59,029 nt of DNA, taken from contig JAOADA010000007.1 of assembly GCA_026417555.1 (NCBI GenBank), positions 1 through 59,029 on the forward strand. Direction: 5' to 3'. The position numbers were made by a program, and so were the translations under genes. Positions 3,532 through 10,656 of the stretch are shown piece after piece. The notes beneath the pieces were generated by a model. The model ran no database searches, was not told where the DNA came from, and worked only from the letters and a program-made list of their open reading frames with translations. Within the stretch, counting starts at the first letter, position 1. The number at the start of each line of letters is the position of its first letter. The stretch comes from Brevinematales bacterium. Its GTDB lineage: Bacteria > Spirochaetota > Brevinematia > Brevinematales > Thermospiraceae.

Positions 3532-3535
3532 TAGG

Positions 3536-3608
3536 CTCCCCCGGTAGGGCTCGAACCTACGGCCCGCTGGTTAACAGCCAGCTGCTCTGCCTGCTGAGCT
3601 ACAGGGGA
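3536..3608 (-). tRNA. tRNA-Asn(GTT)
   Basis: A 73-nt cloverleaf on the minus strand. Acceptor TCCCCTG pairs with CGGGGGA with one T-G pair. The anticodon loop CTGTTAA is on a GCTGG/CCAGC stem, the T-arm has TTCGAGC, and the discriminator is G. The 3' CCA is not encoded (GCCT follows), so CCA must be added after transcription. It has its own promoter and terminator. Confidence 0.96.
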
Positions 3609-3690: not shown

Positions 3691-5883
3691 TCACGTGTTT
3701 TTTCTTTGCAGGCGATACATTACTACTTCCCAGGACATTTCTTTCATGAGGTGGGGCAATGTCTCGTCCTTGGTAAAGATCACATACTGCCAATCGTATT
3801 TCTTCTGAAACTTCAAGAGAAGCCTCAAAGCCACCTGCTTTCTCTCCTCATCAAGGGAAGCAAATGGTTCGTCAAACACAAACACGCCGGGTTGAGTATT
3901 CTCCCACATTCTCTGTCCTAAAAAAAGCCGAAGGGCTAAATAAAAAAGATCCTGTGTCCCTTGGGAGAGAAACTTTACGGGCCGCTTTTCCCCCAACACA
4001 TCAGAAAACAGCATCCCTTCTTTCCCAAAGCTTTTGAGTTGAATGTCCTGAAAGGCGGGGTAGATATCTCCGAATTCTTCTTTTACCTGAGTAGACAAAA
4101 ATTCAAAAACAGAGGATTGCTCTGTTTCTATCTCTTGAAATAGAGAACACAGCCGCTCATACGCCATTTTTTCCCTTTCCAGCTGGTTTTTCTTTTCTTC
4201 AAGACGTTTCTCCTCTTGCCTGAGTTTGGCATACCTCTGCATACTCTCCTCTAATCTCATCAGGCTAGCAGACAATTCCACCTCTTTTCTGGTGCTCTCT
4301 TCTCTCGTTTTGTGAAGATTTTCCAATTCTCTTTCCAACTCCATCAGCCTTTTTTTCCCTTCCTCTCGCTTGCCCTGTAGGGTTGCCAGGTCCTTTTCAC
4401 GAGGGAGAGGCAATATTGAGACTCTTGCCCTTATCCGACGGGCGTTTTCCTCAAAAGAAAGGCTCTTTTCCACTCCATCAAAAGACTCAAGCCCTCTTTG
4501 CAATCCCTGAAGTTCCGCCTCTTTTTCCTTTTTTTCAGAAAGAAGCTTCTTAGCGACTGCAAGAGACGATACTCGGTAGGCCGAACAAAAATCGTTCTCT
4601 TGTTTTTCAAAAGCCTCTTTCTCCTGGTGAAAGCGTGTTTTTTCTTCTTCTCCCTTTTGTTTTCGCTCAGCCCAGGAGTGTTTTTGTTTTTCTATTTCAC
4701 TCACAAAAGCCTCCCAATTTGCTGGCCGAAACGAGAGAAGCCCAATTCGCTGAGCCTCGGTATAGAGGGCTTCCATCTTTTGTTTGAGAACATTTTCTTC
4801 TGCCTTTGCTCCAAAAAACATCCCCATCAGAAAACTTAGCCCAGCAAACACCGCCCCGACCATGGCTATCCCAAACCAGATATACCACGGTACCGAGGAG
4901 AAAACAATCATCCCTCCCACAGCCCCAAGAGAGAGCACCATGAGCCCCCCACCAACACCCCTCCACAGCAAGGCCTTGCGTCTTCCCTTTCGGGACGTCT
5001 CTTCTGTATTTTTCCGTTCTTCCTCCACAAACACCATCTGAGGACGGATCGCTTCAAGCTTGTTATACCACGTCGCAAGTTCCATATCCTGAGACTTGAG
5101 ACGCTCTTCCCAGGCCTTGAGCTCTTCTCTTTTCTTTTCAAGTTCAGAAATCTCCTCCTCCGATAATCCAGCATACTGGCGCTGGAGGTCGTCCCTTTTT
5201 TCTCTATACTCCTCATACCTGGTGAGCCACTCAGCCATCCTGACTGCCTCAAGAGATTTCTCTACCTCTTCCTGCTGAATGCGACAGGCATCACGCTCTC
5301 TTCGCAAGATCTCTTCTTTTTCTTTTTTTGTTTGTAATTCAGTTTTAAATTTCTGAAACTCTTCCAAAGTCTTTTGGTATCCCCTTGCTTCCCTCTCAAG
5401 AAGCTCTATCTGTTGTCGAAGAGTCTCCATGGCCTTGGTTATTTCTTCTATTTTTTTGGGATAGGCATCGTTTCTTCTCGAAGTCACCATGGATTCAAAA
5501 TGTTGTTTCAAAGAGGTAATATCATACCCCCCAAAAAGGAGGCGAGAACGCATCTCAGAAACCCAATTTTTCCTCGAATCAAACACAATCTCATTTCCAC
5601 TTGCCCTCACCGCAAAAAAACTGAAGAAATGATTATAATCCAAGACAAGCGGTTCTTCTAACTCCATTTCTGGAAGGGGGACTTTGGTGTTATTTTTTTT
5701 ATAGCGGTCTTGAATAGTCTCCCACATCTCACCGCGCCCCTTCTGACAAAGCCCCAAGGCAAGGGCATCGAAGAGTGTCGTTTTCCCAGACTCATTCGGC
5801 CCAACAAAAAGTGTCGTTTTCCCAAACTCAAAAGAGGCATTTCGAAATCTCCCAAAAGAGGAAAGTTTCAAACGACGAATCAC
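3691..5883 (-). CDS. SbcC/Rad50-like ATPase with membrane segments (YhaN type)
   Basis: ABC/SMC-type ATPase expected to act with the preceding SbcD-like nuclease on DNA ends. The start is taken as GTG 5883, which overlaps the nuclease stop as GTGA and follows a GGGGGAAG site. That gives 730 aa; an ATG at 5940 is also open. Walker A is GPNESGKT (residues 28-35). The C-terminus has the signature LSQGTQDLFYLALR and Walker B VFVFDEPFASLDEE. Coiled coils fill the middle. Between them are two hydrophobic segments, about residues 308-328 and 333-358, where E. coli SbcC has a zinc hook. This matches Bacillus YhaN, whose partner YhaO is SbcD-like. Membrane attachment is inferred from sequence only. 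Confidence 0.85.
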   Translation of the reverse strand: MIRRLKLSSFGRFRNASFEFGKTTLFVGPNESGKTTLFDALALGLCQKGRGEMWETIQDRYKKNNTKVPLPEMELEEPLVLDYNHFFSFFAVRASGNEIVFDSRKNWVSEMRSRLLFGGYDITSLKQHFESMVTSRRNDAYPKKIEEITKAMETLRQQIELLEREARGYQKTLEEFQKFKTELQTKKEKEEILRRERDACRIQQEEVEKSLEAVRMAEWLTRYEEYREKRDDLQRQYAGLSEEEISELEKKREELKAWEERLKSQDMELATWYNKLEAIRPQMVFVEEERKNTEETSRKGRRKALLWRGVGGGLMVLSLGAVGGMIVFSSVPWYIWFGIAMVGAVFAGLSFLMGMFFGAKAEENVLKQKMEALYTEAQRIGLLSFRPANWEAFVSEIEKQKHSWAERKQKGEEEKTRFHQEKEAFEKQENDFCSAYRVSSLAVAKKLLSEKKEKEAELQGLQRGLESFDGVEKSLSFEENARRIRARVSILPLPREKDLATLQGKREEGKKRLMELERELENLHKTREESTRKEVELSASLMRLEESMQRYAKLRQEEKRLEEKKNQLEREKMAYERLCSLFQEIETEQSSVFEFLSTQVKEEFGDIYPAFQDIQLKSFGKEGMLFSDVLGEKRPVKFLSQGTQDLFYLALRLFLGQRMWENTQPGVFVFDEPFASLDEERKQVALRLLLKFQKKYDWQYVIFTKDETLPHLMKEMSWEVVMYRLQRKNT

Positions 5884-6941
5884 CCTCTTCCCCCCTGCTG
5901 TAGAAAATCTTTTACAAAGATCTCTCTGGCAAGAAGCCAAAGGGATTTTTCCTCTTCTGGACTTGCTTCATAATGCTTTTCCCACTTGGAAAGAAAAATC
6001 TGCCACACCGGATGATTTGCCAAAACAGATGAGAGGAAAAGACCTTCCTCATCAAAGGTAATCTCTGCTACATTCGTATACTTTTGTCGGAGGTGGTCTT
6101 TGATTTTCTCCTTCTGGGCATCATTCTGGACAACTCCATAGAGATCAAAGTGAAGCCACGTGTGAGAGGAAAAAGGCTTTTCCTCCCGATCCTCCACCTG
6201 GTCATAGAAAACAAAAACCTCTTTCTCCTGAAAAACCCTTCCCTCTGGCAAGTTTTCAAAACGCTCTGTATGTGTCTCAGTATCATAGACAAGATACCCA
6301 TGTTCCCCACTCTCCCCCTTTCTCCACACCCTGGCGGAGCCAAGCGTTCGATACACCCCATCCTCAAGACGCTGGTGGATATGCCCCAAAAATACCCGCT
6401 CACACTGAAACATGGTAGCAAACGTTTTTGGGATCACCTCGGCTTCCTCTGACATATGGGGAACCCACGAGGCAAGCCCCACATGGGCTACCGCTATCCT
6501 TCGCTGCTCAGGAGAAGGAAAACGGGACAAAAGCTTGCTGGGAGAAAACGCCTCCCTCTCCTCCTCTGTACGTACCAACGGAAAAGGATAGCCCATAATC
6601 TCTATCCCATCCTCCACCCAGAGATCTGGTGTGAGGCACACCTCTACTTTTTCCCCAAAATTCATATCTGCCAGTCGATAGACCTGTTTTCCTGTGGTAG
6701 GATTGGTGAGATCATGATTGCCCACAATCCAGAGAAGACGAGAAATCCGTGTCTTGTCCACAGAATGCGCTAACCATTGCCGCAGAGTATAGGCATCATC
6801 AAGACTATCAAAAAGATCTCCCCCTACTACCACCAACGAGATGTTTTCTTCTTCTACACGCGAAAGAAAGGCCTCCCATACCTGCTGCGTCCACGGAAGA
6901 GAGGCAGCTACATGAAGATCGGAAATAAGTGCTATTTTCAT
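5880..6941 (-). CDS. SbcD/Mre11-like DNA exonuclease (YhaO type)
   Basis: Metallophosphoesterase-fold DNA nuclease, 353 aa. The start is ATG 6941, beginning MKIALISDLHVAAS; an upstream in-frame ATG would add nine hydrophobic residues and lies inside the promoter. Metal-binding motifs are visible: SDLH, GGDLFDSLDD, WIVGNHDL and FLGHIHQR. The next gene overlaps it by 4 bp and encodes the Rad50-like partner. No ribosome site is seen. A good promoter places the transcription start at the ATG, so the mRNA is probably leaderless. Confidence 0.9.
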   Translation of the reverse strand: MKIALISDLHVAASLPWTQQVWEAFLSRVEEENISLVVVGGDLFDSLDDAYTLRQWLAHSVDKTRISRLLWIVGNHDLTNPTTGKQVYRLADMNFGEKVEVCLTPDLWVEDGIEIMGYPFPLVRTEEEREAFSPSKLLSRFPSPEQRRIAVAHVGLASWVPHMSEEAEVIPKTFATMFQCERVFLGHIHQRLEDGVYRTLGSARVWRKGESGEHGYLVYDTETHTERFENLPEGRVFQEKEVFVFYDQVEDREEKPFSSHTWLHFDLYGVVQNDAQKEKIKDHLRQKYTNVAEITFDEEGLFLSSVLANHPVWQIFLSKWEKHYEASPEEEKSLWLLAREIFVKDFLQQGGRG

Positions 6942-6948
6942 AGAAAAT

Positions 6949-6977
6949 AGTATAACAAAAAAAAACAAAAATGTCCA
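6949..6977 (-). promoter_or_regulatory. sigma-70 promoter of the sbcD/sbcC-like operon
   Basis: Minus strand TGGACA, 17-bp spacer, TATACT. The -10 ends 7 nt before the ATG at 6941, which predicts transcription starting at or within one base of the start codon. Confidence 0.8.
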
Positions 6978-6985
6978 CTTTATGT

Positions 6986-7037
6986 CTTCATCCCTGCTTC
7001 AGCCACCAAGATCCCTCTCAAGACCATCCCATGTCCC
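6986..7037. repeat. 52-bp direct repeat, copy A
   Basis: Matches 8321-8372 at 51 of 52 positions, with the last 46 bp identical, in the same orientation and 1335 bp apart. The two copies bracket the lipoprotein gene at 7217-8110. Read on the minus strand, both copies keep one open frame that encodes the same 15 residues (GHGMVLRGILVAEAG). Confidence 0.95.
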
Positions 7038-7153
7038 CGCCCTAAAACCAAAAAAATTCAAAACAGTAAAAAATACACCCCCTCACCAAAAGAAAACCCA
7101 TCCTCCCCTCATGCCCCCTCTTGAGAGAAACCAACCACCATTGCTAAAAAGCC

Positions 7154-7182
7154 AAAAAAACAGGAGGGCTTTAAAACCCTCC
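7154..7182 (-). terminator. terminator of the lipoprotein gene
   Basis: Minus strand GGAGGG, 8-nt loop, CCCTCC, followed by TGTTTTTTT. It lies about 35 bp beyond the lipoprotein stop codon. Confidence 0.85.
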
Positions 7183-7216
7183 CTCAGATACTTTCAAAAC
7201 ACCTTTCTCCTTCATA

Positions 7217-8110
7217 CTAAGGAACTTCCTTCAACGTCACCGTGTAGGAAACAGGGGCTGAATAAGAAGAAACTTTCACATACCACACATTCCCATCCCC
7301 AAGAATAGCAAGAGTAGGATGAGAACCATACCTAAAGGCTTTCTGATTCCCCCCCGCATTGAAAAGTTCTATATGCCCCTCCGAAATCCCAAAGTTGTTG
7401 CTCACTATATAGGATTTCCCACTTACCGTGGAGATCTTAATCCAATCAATATCAGTGGATACATGGAAATTCCGATTTTGCGTCTCCCCTACACCTATCT
7501 CCTTCGCTAAACTCATCTCACCATCCACCTCATACGAATCAGGCTTAAGTTCCTCCAGCGTCACCGTGTAAGAAAGAGGGACTGAATGCGAAGAAACCTT
7601 CACATACCACACCTTCCCATCCCCAACGATAGCAAGAGTAGAAGTAAAACCATTTGTCAAGATTTTTTGATTTCCTGCTGCATCGTACAGTTCCAGATAT
7701 CCCCTCGAAGTCCCAAAGTTGTTGCTCACTATATAGTATTTCCCTCTCATCGTGGAGATCTTAATCCAATCAATATCAGTGGATACATGGAGATTCCGGT
7801 TTTGCGTCTCCCCTACACCTACCTCCTTCGCTAAACTCATCTCATCATCCACCTCATACGAGTCAGGAGAAAGAGACGAGACACTCTGTACAGTTTGTGA
7901 CTCACTCTTTTCATAGGAGTCAAAAGAAGAGGTTCCCTGTCTGGTTCTCGACTCACTCTTTTTATAGGGATCATTTTTATAGGGATCAAAAGAAGAGACA
8001 TCTTTTCCGGTTTGTAAATCACTCTTCCCGTTACCCTCTTTTATATTACAGCCAACCAAAACCACAAACACCGCTGACAAAACAACCAACACACCCCATG
8101 ATTTCTTCAT
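7217..8110 (-). CDS. lipoprotein with two tandem 108-residue PPC-like domains
   Basis: A 297-aa predicted lipoprotein. A hydrophobic signal peptide ends in LVGC, making Cys21 the likely lipidated residue. Residues 22-81 are a polar linker with short SFDxY/SES repeats. Residues 82-189 and 190-297 are two tandem copies of one domain beginning PDSYEVDxEMSLAKE and containing DIDWIKIS and YTVTL. The pattern resembles bacterial pre-peptidase C-terminal (PPC) beta-sandwich domains, but no catalytic domain is attached. A ribosome site (AAAGGAG) precedes the ATG. The gene has its own promoter and terminator and lies between 52-bp direct repeats. Function unknown; probably an envelope-exposed binding or structural protein. 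Confidence 0.85.
   Translation of the reverse strand: MKKSWGVLVVLSAVFVVLVGCNIKEGNGKSDLQTGKDVSSFDPYKNDPYKKSESRTRQGTSSFDSYEKSESQTVQSVSSLSPDSYEVDDEMSLAKEVGVGETQNRNLHVSTDIDWIKISTMRGKYYIVSNNFGTSRGYLELYDAAGNQKILTNGFTSTLAIVGDGKVWYVKVSSHSVPLSYTVTLEELKPDSYEVDGEMSLAKEIGVGETQNRNFHVSTDIDWIKISTVSGKSYIVSNNFGISEGHIELFNAGGNQKAFRYGSHPTLAILGDGNVWYVKVSSYSAPVSYTVTLKEVP
7220..7867 (-). repeat. in-gene tandem duplication, 324-bp unit
   Basis: Two adjacent 324-bp (108-codon) units, 7544-7867 and 7220-7543, are in register and clearly similar at DNA level. They encode the two PPC-like domains of the lipoprotein. The reading frame is preserved. Confidence 0.9.
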
Positions 8111-8146
8111 CTTTATCTCCTTTCTATTGCTTTTTAGATTAGCTTT

Positions 8147-8175
8147 ATTATAAAGATTGTCTTTTCTTGTGTCAA
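8147..8175 (-). promoter_or_regulatory. consensus promoter of the lipoprotein gene
   Basis: Minus strand TTGACA, 17-bp spacer, TATAAT: a perfect sigma-70 consensus, about 37 bp upstream of the ATG at 8110. Confidence 0.9.
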
Positions 8176-8320
8176 ACTCCTAAAAAAAACAAAAAGCCTC
8201 CTTTTTTTCACAAAAGAAACATTGAACTTCCTGGCAAAAACATACCCTTTTCTGTGGATTCGTACCCAAGAAAAGACAAAAGAATTTTCTCTTTTAAATA
8301 CTCATTTCAAAGAACATACC

Positions 8321-8372
8321 CTTCACCCCTGCTTCAGCCACCAAGATCCCTCTCAAGACCATCCCATGTCCC
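8321..8372. repeat. 52-bp direct repeat, copy B
   Basis: Second copy of the repeat at 6986-7037. On the minus strand its open frame continues past the repeat for about ten residues to a stop, whereas copy A stops almost at once, so the two tails differ. Confidence 0.95.
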
Positions 8373-8574
8373 TCACAGGCAAGACCATGGGAACCCCATC
8401 CTCAAGCCAAAAAAAACGTGAGTAACGACACAAAAGAAAAACAGCCCTCTTAAGAGAAATCTCCTTTGCTGAAACATGGTGATAGATCCTCCCCACTGAG
8501 GTCTCCCCCCTTTTTTAGAAATTTTCTCTTCCCTTTCTATATTTTCACAGAGAACGTTTAGGTTTTTGCCACAC

Positions 8575-8601
8575 TCAAGCAAAGTCTTTTTCAGCCGATA
8601 C
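8575..8601 (+). promoter_or_regulatory. sigma-28 (FliA)-like promoter of flgF
   Basis: TCAA, 15-bp spacer, GCCGATAC, compared with the enterobacterial FliA consensus TAAA-N15-GCCGATAA: 3/4 and 7/8 matches at the correct spacing. It lies 25 bp upstream of the flagellar gene start. Confidence 0.65.
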
Positions 8602-8626: not shown

Positions 8627-9475
8627 ATGGTCAGGTCTATTTTCACAGGGGCTTCCGGAATGATGGTTACCATGGAAGAAATGAATACCGTCGCCAACAA
8701 CCTCGCTAACGTCAATACGGATGGCTACAAAAGGGAAACCAGTGTCACCAAGGCTTTCCCCGAGATGCTTGTCCGAAGAATCAATGATGATGGGGTGGTG
8801 AAATTTCCATTGGGAAGCTACGATCTTGCTCCCGTGGTAGGAAAGCTTGGAACAGGTGTAGAATTCAACGAGAGTTATATTCGGTTTGAACAGGGAAGCC
8901 TACTAGAAACAGAAAACGATTTTGATCTTGCTCTTGAGGGGGACGGTTTCTTTACCGTGATGACAGAACAAGGAGAACGCTATACAAGAAACGGCAATTT
9001 CAACATTTCCGTAGATGGGTATCTCGTTGACAAACATGGAAATCGAGTTATGGGAGAAAAGGGATTCATCCGAATTGCCAGAAACAATTTCAAGATAGAC
9101 CAGGAAGGCAATGTCTACGTCAATCTTGATTATTCCCCTGAAGATTTCGTTGACAAGGCCGGCAACGAATGGAAAAATATGACTCTCATCGATAGGCTAA
9201 AGATAGTAGATTTTCCTGAGCGCCGCTACCTTGCAAAAGAAGGGTACACGTGGTATCGAGAAACAGATTTCTCAGGCCCAGCCACTGTTGTACCTGAGAA
9301 CACACGCCCCAAAGTCATCCAAGGAGCACTAGAAAAATCCAATGTTGATCCCGTCGTAGAAATGGTACGTATGATCGAAATCAATCGCCTCTATGAGGCC
9401 AACCAGAAAAGCATCCAGACAGCGGATGAAACCCTCGCCAAGGCTGTAGGGCAAGTAGGTCGAGGCCTTGCCTAA
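8627..9475 (+). CDS. flgF: flagellar basal-body rod protein, FlgF/FlgG family
   Basis: Component of the flagellar rod, exported through the flagellar type III apparatus; 282 aa. The N-terminus IFTGASGMMVTMEEM then VANNLANVNTDGYKR is the conserved rod/hook helix. The middle has LALEGDGFFTV and YTRNGNFNISVDGYLV. The C-terminus VDPVVEMVRMIEINRLYEANQK is the partner helix. Length and sequence fit FlgF or the related FlhO/FlhP; FlgG is also possible. The start follows AGGAGG. The gene appears alone rather than in a flgF-flgG pair. A sigma-28-like promoter precedes it. Confidence 0.88.
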   Translation: MVRSIFTGASGMMVTMEEMNTVANNLANVNTDGYKRETSVTKAFPEMLVRRINDDGVVKFPLGSYDLAPVVGKLGTGVEFNESYIRFEQGSLLETENDFDLALEGDGFFTVMTEQGERYTRNGNFNISVDGYLVDKHGNRVMGEKGFIRIARNNFKIDQEGNVYVNLDYSPEDFVDKAGNEWKNMTLIDRLKIVDFPERRYLAKEGYTWYRETDFSGPATVVPENTRPKVIQGALEKSNVDPVVEMVRMIEINRLYEANQKSIQTADETLAKAVGQVGRGLA

Positions 9476-9510: not shown

Positions 9511-10656
9511 TTAGCACTTTTTCTCTGCTTGCGCCCGAAGGAGTTCCTCACGAGCCATGGCTTCTACAGCCTCGTGAGCCATGTTAATCTTGTCTCTTTC
9601 AATGATCTCCCGACGCATAAGCTCTTCCACAATCTCATGGGCCTTGTTGATCATGTCCTTTTCTTTCATTTCGGTTTGCATAAGTTCATTGACCACATCA
9701 TAGGCCTGAATAATTTTCTCCTCTTCGATCAGCGCCTTGCGGCTAAGCTCATTGACAATCTCAAACGCCCCAATGATCTTGTCTCTCTCGGCCAACTCCT
9801 TCCTCGCGAGCTCCTCAACAATCTCATGAGCCCTGTTCATCTGGTCCTCATCAATCAGCTGTTTACGAAAGAGTTCTTCCACAACTTCGTGAGCTTCATT
9901 GATCTTGTCTCTGTCCTTAAGCTCTTGTTGAATAAGGCTTTCAAGATTCTCATAGGCCGTGATGGTCTTGTCAGCATCCAACCTTTCCCGACGAGCTAAT
10001 TCCTCAACCATTTCATAGGCTTTGATAATCTTGAAAAGATCAACCATCTGTCGCCTCTTCAGCTCGTCGATAATCTCATATGCTCGAAGAATATGGTCGT
10101 CTTCAACTTTTTCCTTCCTGTAGATTTCTTCAATCTTTTCATAGGCATCAAGAAGTTTGAGGTAATCCGCAAGTCCCACTTGATCCTTCACCTGCGTTTT
10201 CAGAGAAGCAATCTCTTCTCTTGCCATGTTTTCTACCACCTCATGCGCCTTGTTGATCTGTTCCTGCTGGATGAGTTCCTGTCTTGCAAGTTCCTCTACA
10301 ATCTCATGAGCCCGGATCTCCATCCGTGCCTCAATGAGCTCTCTTGTCGAAAGATCCACGGCTTTCTGGTAGGCATCAATAATGGCATCTCTTTCTTTTT
10401 TTTCTTCATTAGCAAGATCGACTGTCGATTCCATGGCCCTCACTATCTTGTTTTGTTCAAGTTGCTCCTTGCGGGAAAGGTTCTCCACAATCTCATGGGC
10501 CTCTAAGAGTTTGTCCCTTTCCATGAGCTCCTGACGAGTGAGGGACGAAACCTTCTCATACATCTCAATAATCTTCTGGTATTCGTCCACCTTTTTCTTC
10601 AGGGCTTCATTCTCCGCCCTGAGTTTTTCAAGTTCATCTTTTTTGTTGCCAAGCAT
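9511..10656 (-). CDS. coiled-coil protein of 21-residue repeats
   Basis: A 381-aa cytoplasmic protein with no signal peptide or membrane segment. After a 40-residue leucine-zipper-like start, residues 41-368 are near-regular 21-residue (three-heptad) units of the form RKELxERDKIxxAHEIVEEL. There are five units (41-145), one irregular 34-residue unit (146-179), then nine units (180-368). A short tail ends in Lys-Lys-Cys. The repeats predict a long uniform alpha-helical rod or bundle. The start follows AAGGAGGG and the gene has its own promoter. Spirochaetes have cytoplasmic filament proteins, but I do not recognise this one as CfpA. Function unknown. Confidence 0.85.
   Translation of the reverse strand: MLGNKKDELEKLRAENEALKKKVDEYQKIIEMYEKVSSLTRQELMERDKLLEAHEIVENLSRKEQLEQNKIVRAMESTVDLANEEKKERDAIIDAYQKAVDLSTRELIEARMEIRAHEIVEELARQELIQQEQINKAHEVVENMAREEIASLKTQVKDQVGLADYLKLLDAYEKIEEIYRKEKVEDDHILRAYEIIDELKRRQMVDLFKIIKAYEMVEELARRERLDADKTITAYENLESLIQQELKDRDKINEAHEVVEELFRKQLIDEDQMNRAHEIVEELARKELAERDKIIGAFEIVNELSRKALIEEEKIIQAYDVVNELMQTEMKEKDMINKAHEIVEELMRREIIERDKINMAHEAVEAMAREELLRAQAEKKC
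9553..10536 (-). repeat. 63-bp-periodic repeats in the coiled-coil gene
   Basis: Fourteen units of exactly 63 bp (21 codons) and one 102-bp irregular unit are in frame within the coiled-coil gene. The DNA units have diverged, but codon phase and the AHEIVEEL-type core persist. Confidence 0.88.

Follow-up and report, generated by a model that had tools for sequence, protein, structure and literature searches.

A pair of near-identical 52-bp direct repeats stands at the edges of a DNA segment of about 1.59 kb, which carries a lipoprotein gene and separates an exonuclease gene from a flagellar gene in the genome of a free-living spirochaete, a Brevinematales bacterium. The repeat pair is real, the insertion is real and specific to this lineage, and the finding is ordinary in kind. 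Our preferred explanation, to which we give a probability of roughly 0.6, is that the repeats are the local duplication scar of an insertion and that the 52-mer is not the agent by which the lipoprotein gene spreads. All positions refer to the window, that is the whole stretch of 59,029 nucleotides that was analysed.

In plus-strand coordinates the two copies of the 52-mer occupy 6986-7037 (copy 1) and 8321-8372 (copy 2), and both are read on the minus strand. They lie where the original prediction had placed them, start 1335 bp apart and agree at 51 of 52 positions. The sole mismatch is at position 6, which leaves 46 bp of uninterrupted identity. The edges of the repeats are sharp and unlike sequences abut each copy. 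The pair is not a product of chance, because no comparable match appeared in 100 dinucleotide shuffles of the window and it is the sole self-repeat of at least 30 bp and at least 90% identity in 465 kb of the genome (the window and 400 kb of sampled stretches). Between the copies a full unit could be located, also as predicted, with a promoter of TTGACA-17-TATAAT type matching the consensus at 12 of 12 positions (8147-8175, minus strand), the lipoprotein reading frame (7217-8110, minus strand) and an intrinsic terminator (7162-7183, minus strand). Two features of the layout had been overlooked: copy 1 lies 8 nt upstream of the -35 box of the neighbouring sbcD gene, and the inserted DNA continues for 201 bp past copy 2, which itself lies 145 nt upstream of the lipoprotein -35 box.

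An insertion between sbcD and a flagellar rod gene

The left neighbour of the segment is an sbcD-type exonuclease gene encoding a calcineurin-like phosphoesterase (5880-6950, minus strand), with its own promoter TGGACA-17-TATACT at 6977-6949. The right neighbour is a flagellar basal-body rod gene of FlhO/FlgF/FlgG type (8627-9475, plus strand), preceded by a promoter-like GCCGATA motif at 8594-8600, which is intact here and kept as CCGATAC in both congeners. In these congeners sbcD and the rod gene (flhO) are adjacent and divergent, their start codons being 101 and 94 bp apart as against 1,676 bp here, and neither spacer holds a lipoprotein gene or a 52-mer. In a blastn comparison with congener G002 the left flank is homologous up to about 6989 and the right flank from 8574 onwards, and both join at one position of that genome (L045:1402). 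The difference in spacer length and the meeting of the flanks therefore place an insertion of about 1.59 kb at 6986-8573, its left edge being known to within about 7 bp. The left end of this insertion is copy 1, and copy 2 is set back by 201 bp from the right end. The insertion point has the sbcD -35 box (6977) on one side and the GCCGATA motif on the other, so that both promoter regions are spared.

By parsimony over two congeners, it is well supported that the segment was gained in the lineage of this species; loss in both congeners instead is less likely but possible. The polarity is drawn from these two congeners, and the genome itself is a 33-contig draft. The original prediction had described a cassette that can be gained, lost or amplified. 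For gain, the empty spacers of 94 and 101 bp and the related cassettes at two other sites of the genome bear this out; excision or amplification of the lipoprotein gene through the 52-mers is plausible. The region thus offers a view before and after a gene gain in a little-studied group of spirochaetes, in which an accessory lipoprotein gene came to lie between two conserved promoters and broke neither. A spirochaete-like lineage is also what the flagellar genes and the relatives of this genome suggest.

The absence of the 52-mer from both empty sites argues against a target-site duplication, as does the extension of the insert 201 bp beyond copy 2. No recombinase-like or integrase-sized reading frame was found in the insert. 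An integron gene cassette was rejected on this ground and for want of a stable hairpin in the 52-mer (the attC consensus was inspected by eye). A tRNA-linked attachment site was also rejected, the sole tRNA in the first 20 kb (3534-3608) being unrelated, and PADLOC gave only weak matches for a defence system. Convergent to the rod gene lies a gene for a 381-residue protein built of tandem repeats of 21 residues (63 nt; 9511-10656, minus strand), which also adjoins the rod gene in congener G002.

The lipoprotein gene and its paralogues

The lipoprotein gene encodes 297 amino acids, with a signal peptide that ends in a lipobox-like LVGC and two PPC-like beta-sandwich domains. The two domains form an internal duplication of 300 bp (7223-7522 and 7547-7846) with 85% identity in DNA and 75% in amino acids. 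At the Pfam gathering score the protein has no match to PF04151, the PPC domain, and the homologue in G002 scores 21.2 against a cutoff of 25.9. The predicted fold of the domain (pLDDT 80) finds its best PDB matches in the PPC/collagen-binding domains of collagenases, with a TM of about 0.6. On the structure prediction, the domains can be assigned a PPC-like beta-sandwich fold that lies below the Pfam threshold. In the congeners the closest homologue is found within a clostripain-family (C11) peptidase, as its PPC part; a related terminator follows the peptidase gene. The lipoprotein domains are 45% identical to this PPC part and so resemble the PPC-tailed peptidases of this family, but the lipoprotein has no peptidase domain and consists of its signal peptide and two PPC-like domains only.

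Two further paralogues exist in the same genome, which makes the cassette one of three related copies. The paralogue on contig C32 (C32:10438-10791, L048) has one domain; its neighbours on the two sides are ilvD and a gene for a SpoIIE-type phosphatase, both named by inspection. The other, on contig C29 (C29:123914-124040, L049), lies beside uvrD and is cut by the contig end; a contig ending inside the gene suggests a repeat left unresolved in the assembly. Both share promoter-region and coding homology with the lipoprotein gene of the window, the region 8056-8176 around the promoter being matched in both, and a terminator related to that at 7162-7183 follows the C32 paralogue. Over 435 bp that take in the upstream region, the two paralogues share 96% identity; therefore the family has been duplicated recently. 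The three related copies show a gene family that is evidently being duplicated and relocated. For the C32 paralogue there is no empty site to compare, ilvD and the SpoIIE-type gene not being adjacent in the congeners.

Neither paralogue has a 52-mer. Since the family has been duplicated elsewhere without any 52-mer, we infer that the repeat is not what spreads the lipoprotein gene. The role of cassette vehicle, which had been proposed for it, is not supported.

Copy number and character of the 52-mer

Allowing up to 3 mismatches, the genome of 2.04 Mb contains exactly two 52-mers, and the inner 23-mer is found at the same two sites only; in 99 relatives the inner 23-mer is found nowhere (up to 2 mismatches). 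The original prediction had named a search for further copies as a check, and a 52-mer occurring only here, with identical structure in all strains, as a result that would count against it. As far as copy number is concerned, this is the result that was obtained. An exact 18-mer from the middle of the 52-mer is present in six records of a GTDB-scale collection of about 85,000 genomes, compared with about 7 expected by chance for 257 Gb by our own estimate, and in two viral contigs. All of these matches agree with the 52-mer at just 22-27 of 52 positions. Such scans of the collection may omit records very near the genome of the window. Phage and plasmid records gave no match to the 52-mer. With two copies in the genome, none in the 99 relatives and matches at chance level elsewhere, a dispersed repeat family is rejected, and with it the suggestion that the 52-mer is a piece of an unrecognised one.

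Both copies contain an open minus-strand frame with the same 15-residue string, GHGMVLRGILVAEAG, as had been pointed out. The frames run to 25 and 35 codons from stop to stop, have no NCBIfam match, and differ by one substitution that alters the residue adjoining GHGMVLRGILVAEAG (M/V). The string is present, but frames so short and without a family match give it no coding significance, and we reject the 52-mer as a coding sequence or small protein. The shared peptide is coincidental, a by-product of identical DNA. Folded as DNA or as RNA, the 52-mer does no better than its shuffles. It is not palindromic and has no Rfam match above threshold. A structured RNA is rejected on the missing Rfam match and stable fold, and a REP/REPIN element by form on the lack of a hairpin or palindrome.

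Origin of the repeat pair

As the comparison with the two congeners shows, a segment of about 1.59 kb with a self-contained lipoprotein cassette was inserted into the gap of about 100 bp between sbcD and the rod gene, sparing both promoters. We propose that the direct repeats, whose positions are observed, arose as a local two-copy duplication during or after this insertion. Judging from precedent, the 1,335-bp unit would thereby be open to slippage or to homologous recombination between the copies, which would delete the gene or occasionally duplicate it. In E. coli the gene between two perfect direct repeats of 46 bp, 886 bp from each other, is deleted independently of RecA (PMC5426353). The repeats studied here have the same 46 bp of perfect identity, over an interval of about 1.3 kb, and therefore a deletion that removes the lipoprotein gene is physically plausible. 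The repeats would thus make the renewed loss of this gene easy. One observation speaks against a simple local duplication, namely that the 52 bp are kept at 98% identity while the neighbouring tails are not recognisably alike. Constraint or gene conversion could account for such conservation amid unlike tails.

The coincidence of copy 1 with the edge of the insertion would also fit a recombination site. A single 52-mer may have existed beforehand, and a circle of 1,335 bp with the lipoprotein gene and one 52-mer may have recombined into it, with excision proceeding in the same way. The geometry fits, unlike sequences abutting both repeats at sharp edges, and 46 bp of perfect identity would be enough for recombination by the E. 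coli precedent (PMC5426353). We nevertheless consider such an integration unlikely, as a single-copy 52-mer site is found in neither congener nor in any searched genome, the insert holds no recombinase and the paralogous cassettes have no 52-mer.

The tails beside the repeats raise the question whether more than one cassette once stood here. The tail of copy 1 (R1, 7038-7160, minus strand) is a C-rich spacer of which about 7068-7098 resembles the region before the promoter of the C32 paralogue. The tail of copy 2 (R2, 8373-8573, minus strand) is the remainder of the insertion, and about 8429-8458 of it resembles the same region. Each tail matches, in overlapping parts, the stretch just upstream of the C32 promoter better than any of 300 shuffles or 25 non-coding segments. 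A direct homology between R1 and R2 is not significant, 2 of 25 non-coding segments being as good. These resemblances hint that each 52-mer once stood in the upstream region of a cassette; the limitation of the identity to 52 bp would still be unexplained. The pair could then be the remnant of a tandem array of two cassettes, each with upstream region, 52-mer, promoter, gene and terminator, the second of which was deleted from just past its 52-mer to the sbcD promoter. The shared likeness to the C32 pre-promoter region places each 52-mer at a cassette-upstream position, as this would demand. But the two tails show no direct match, no 52-mer lies upstream of the C32 or C29 paralogue and a convenient deletion is required, which makes the array rather doubtful.

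Function could be another reason for the conservation of the 52-mer. It might be a selected upstream site, bound by protein or transcribed, of the minus-strand sbcD and lipoprotein genes. Both copies have the same orientation relative to their downstream promoters, and the 52-mer is conserved while its surroundings differ. Against this, the sbcD promoters of the congeners and the promoters of the paralogous lipoprotein genes have no 52-mer, the distances to the -35 boxes are far apart (8 versus 145 nt), and the 52-mer has neither a stable fold nor an Rfam match. We regard a regulatory role as improbable.

The R2 tail also contains one arm, CTATCACCATGTTTCAGCAAA (8464-8486, minus strand), of a REP-like palindromic family which is abundant in congener G002. 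The arm of this family reads GCTATCACCATGTTTCAGCAAA, and the full palindrome measures 52-56 bp. We counted 160 arms in G002, 1 in G001, 5 in the genome of the window (the others at C27:265795, 270662, 270931 and 271264) and 0 with reversed-pattern controls. The sampled G002 loci hold 40 facing arm pairs, mostly with a span of 52-56 bp, and one example forms a hairpin with z = -6. High copy number and palindromic units in a related genome place the arm at 8464-8486 in a REP-like family. The clusters in G002 also hold GGTTAAACGTTTAACC palindromes, which at L132, L136, L143 and similar loci alternate with the GCTAT...CAGC arm at a spacing of about 75 bp. No Rfam family was found above threshold in three loci with the REP-like palindrome. 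The 160 arms of one congener, set against a near absence in two other genomes, make the repeat an instructive example of rapid expansion or loss among members of a genus. In G002, ilvD and the SpoIIE-type gene are each followed directly by palindromes (C1:15672-15693 and C6:742-793; L069 and L070); these gene ends are joined around the C32 cassette in the genome of the window, which is a synteny break.

It can be asked whether the 52-mer is itself a decayed half of this palindrome, such repeats being the recombination joints that move PPC-lipoprotein cassettes into intergenic sites. By eye, the 52-mer looks like an arm variant over its left 20 nt, and 3-4% of comparable segments do as well. 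Near the left edge 13 of 14 nt match the variant, which is equalled by 35 of 1000 composition-matched and 47 of 1500 random segments (p about 0.03). If true, this would mean a repeat-driven gene-shuffling system in this spirochaete lineage, a prospect that we hold to be quite improbable. An assembly artefact at a short repeat would suit a 33-contig draft in which a contig border cuts another lipoprotein copy, but it is very improbable indeed, as the flanks of the insert are contiguous and both keep the synteny of the congeners, and the copies differ by one base and have distinct flanks.

The duplication scar that we favour can be set beside three known systems. The genus palindrome is like REP/REPIN elements (PMC3733652, PMC3116915) in being dispersed, with 160 arm copies in G002 and many facing pairs of 52-56 bp, and differs from them in having no evident GTAG/CGTC tag; the 52-mer differs in being non-palindromic, in having no fold and in its two copies. 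The vmp genes of Borrelia hermsii with their UHS and DHS (PMC6011951) likewise present a lipoprotein gene of a spirochaete flanked by short blocks of homology. The genome of the window differs in having no silent archive, its paralogues have their own promoters and the blocks are not common to the copies; as C32 and C29 carry their own promoters and no 52-mer, we reject antigenic variation of the Borrelia type. The E. coli H47 island has att-like, imperfect repeats of 144-148 bp, which sets it apart from our case. For this island and the plasmid with 46-bp FRT repeats (PMC5426353), excision was seen by PCR and a deleted plasmid was recovered, whereas the present case is known from one draft genome sequence. 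What they have in common with the window is one or more genes enclosed by short direct repeats of comparable length (46 bp perfect), over a short distance and with no recombinase inside.
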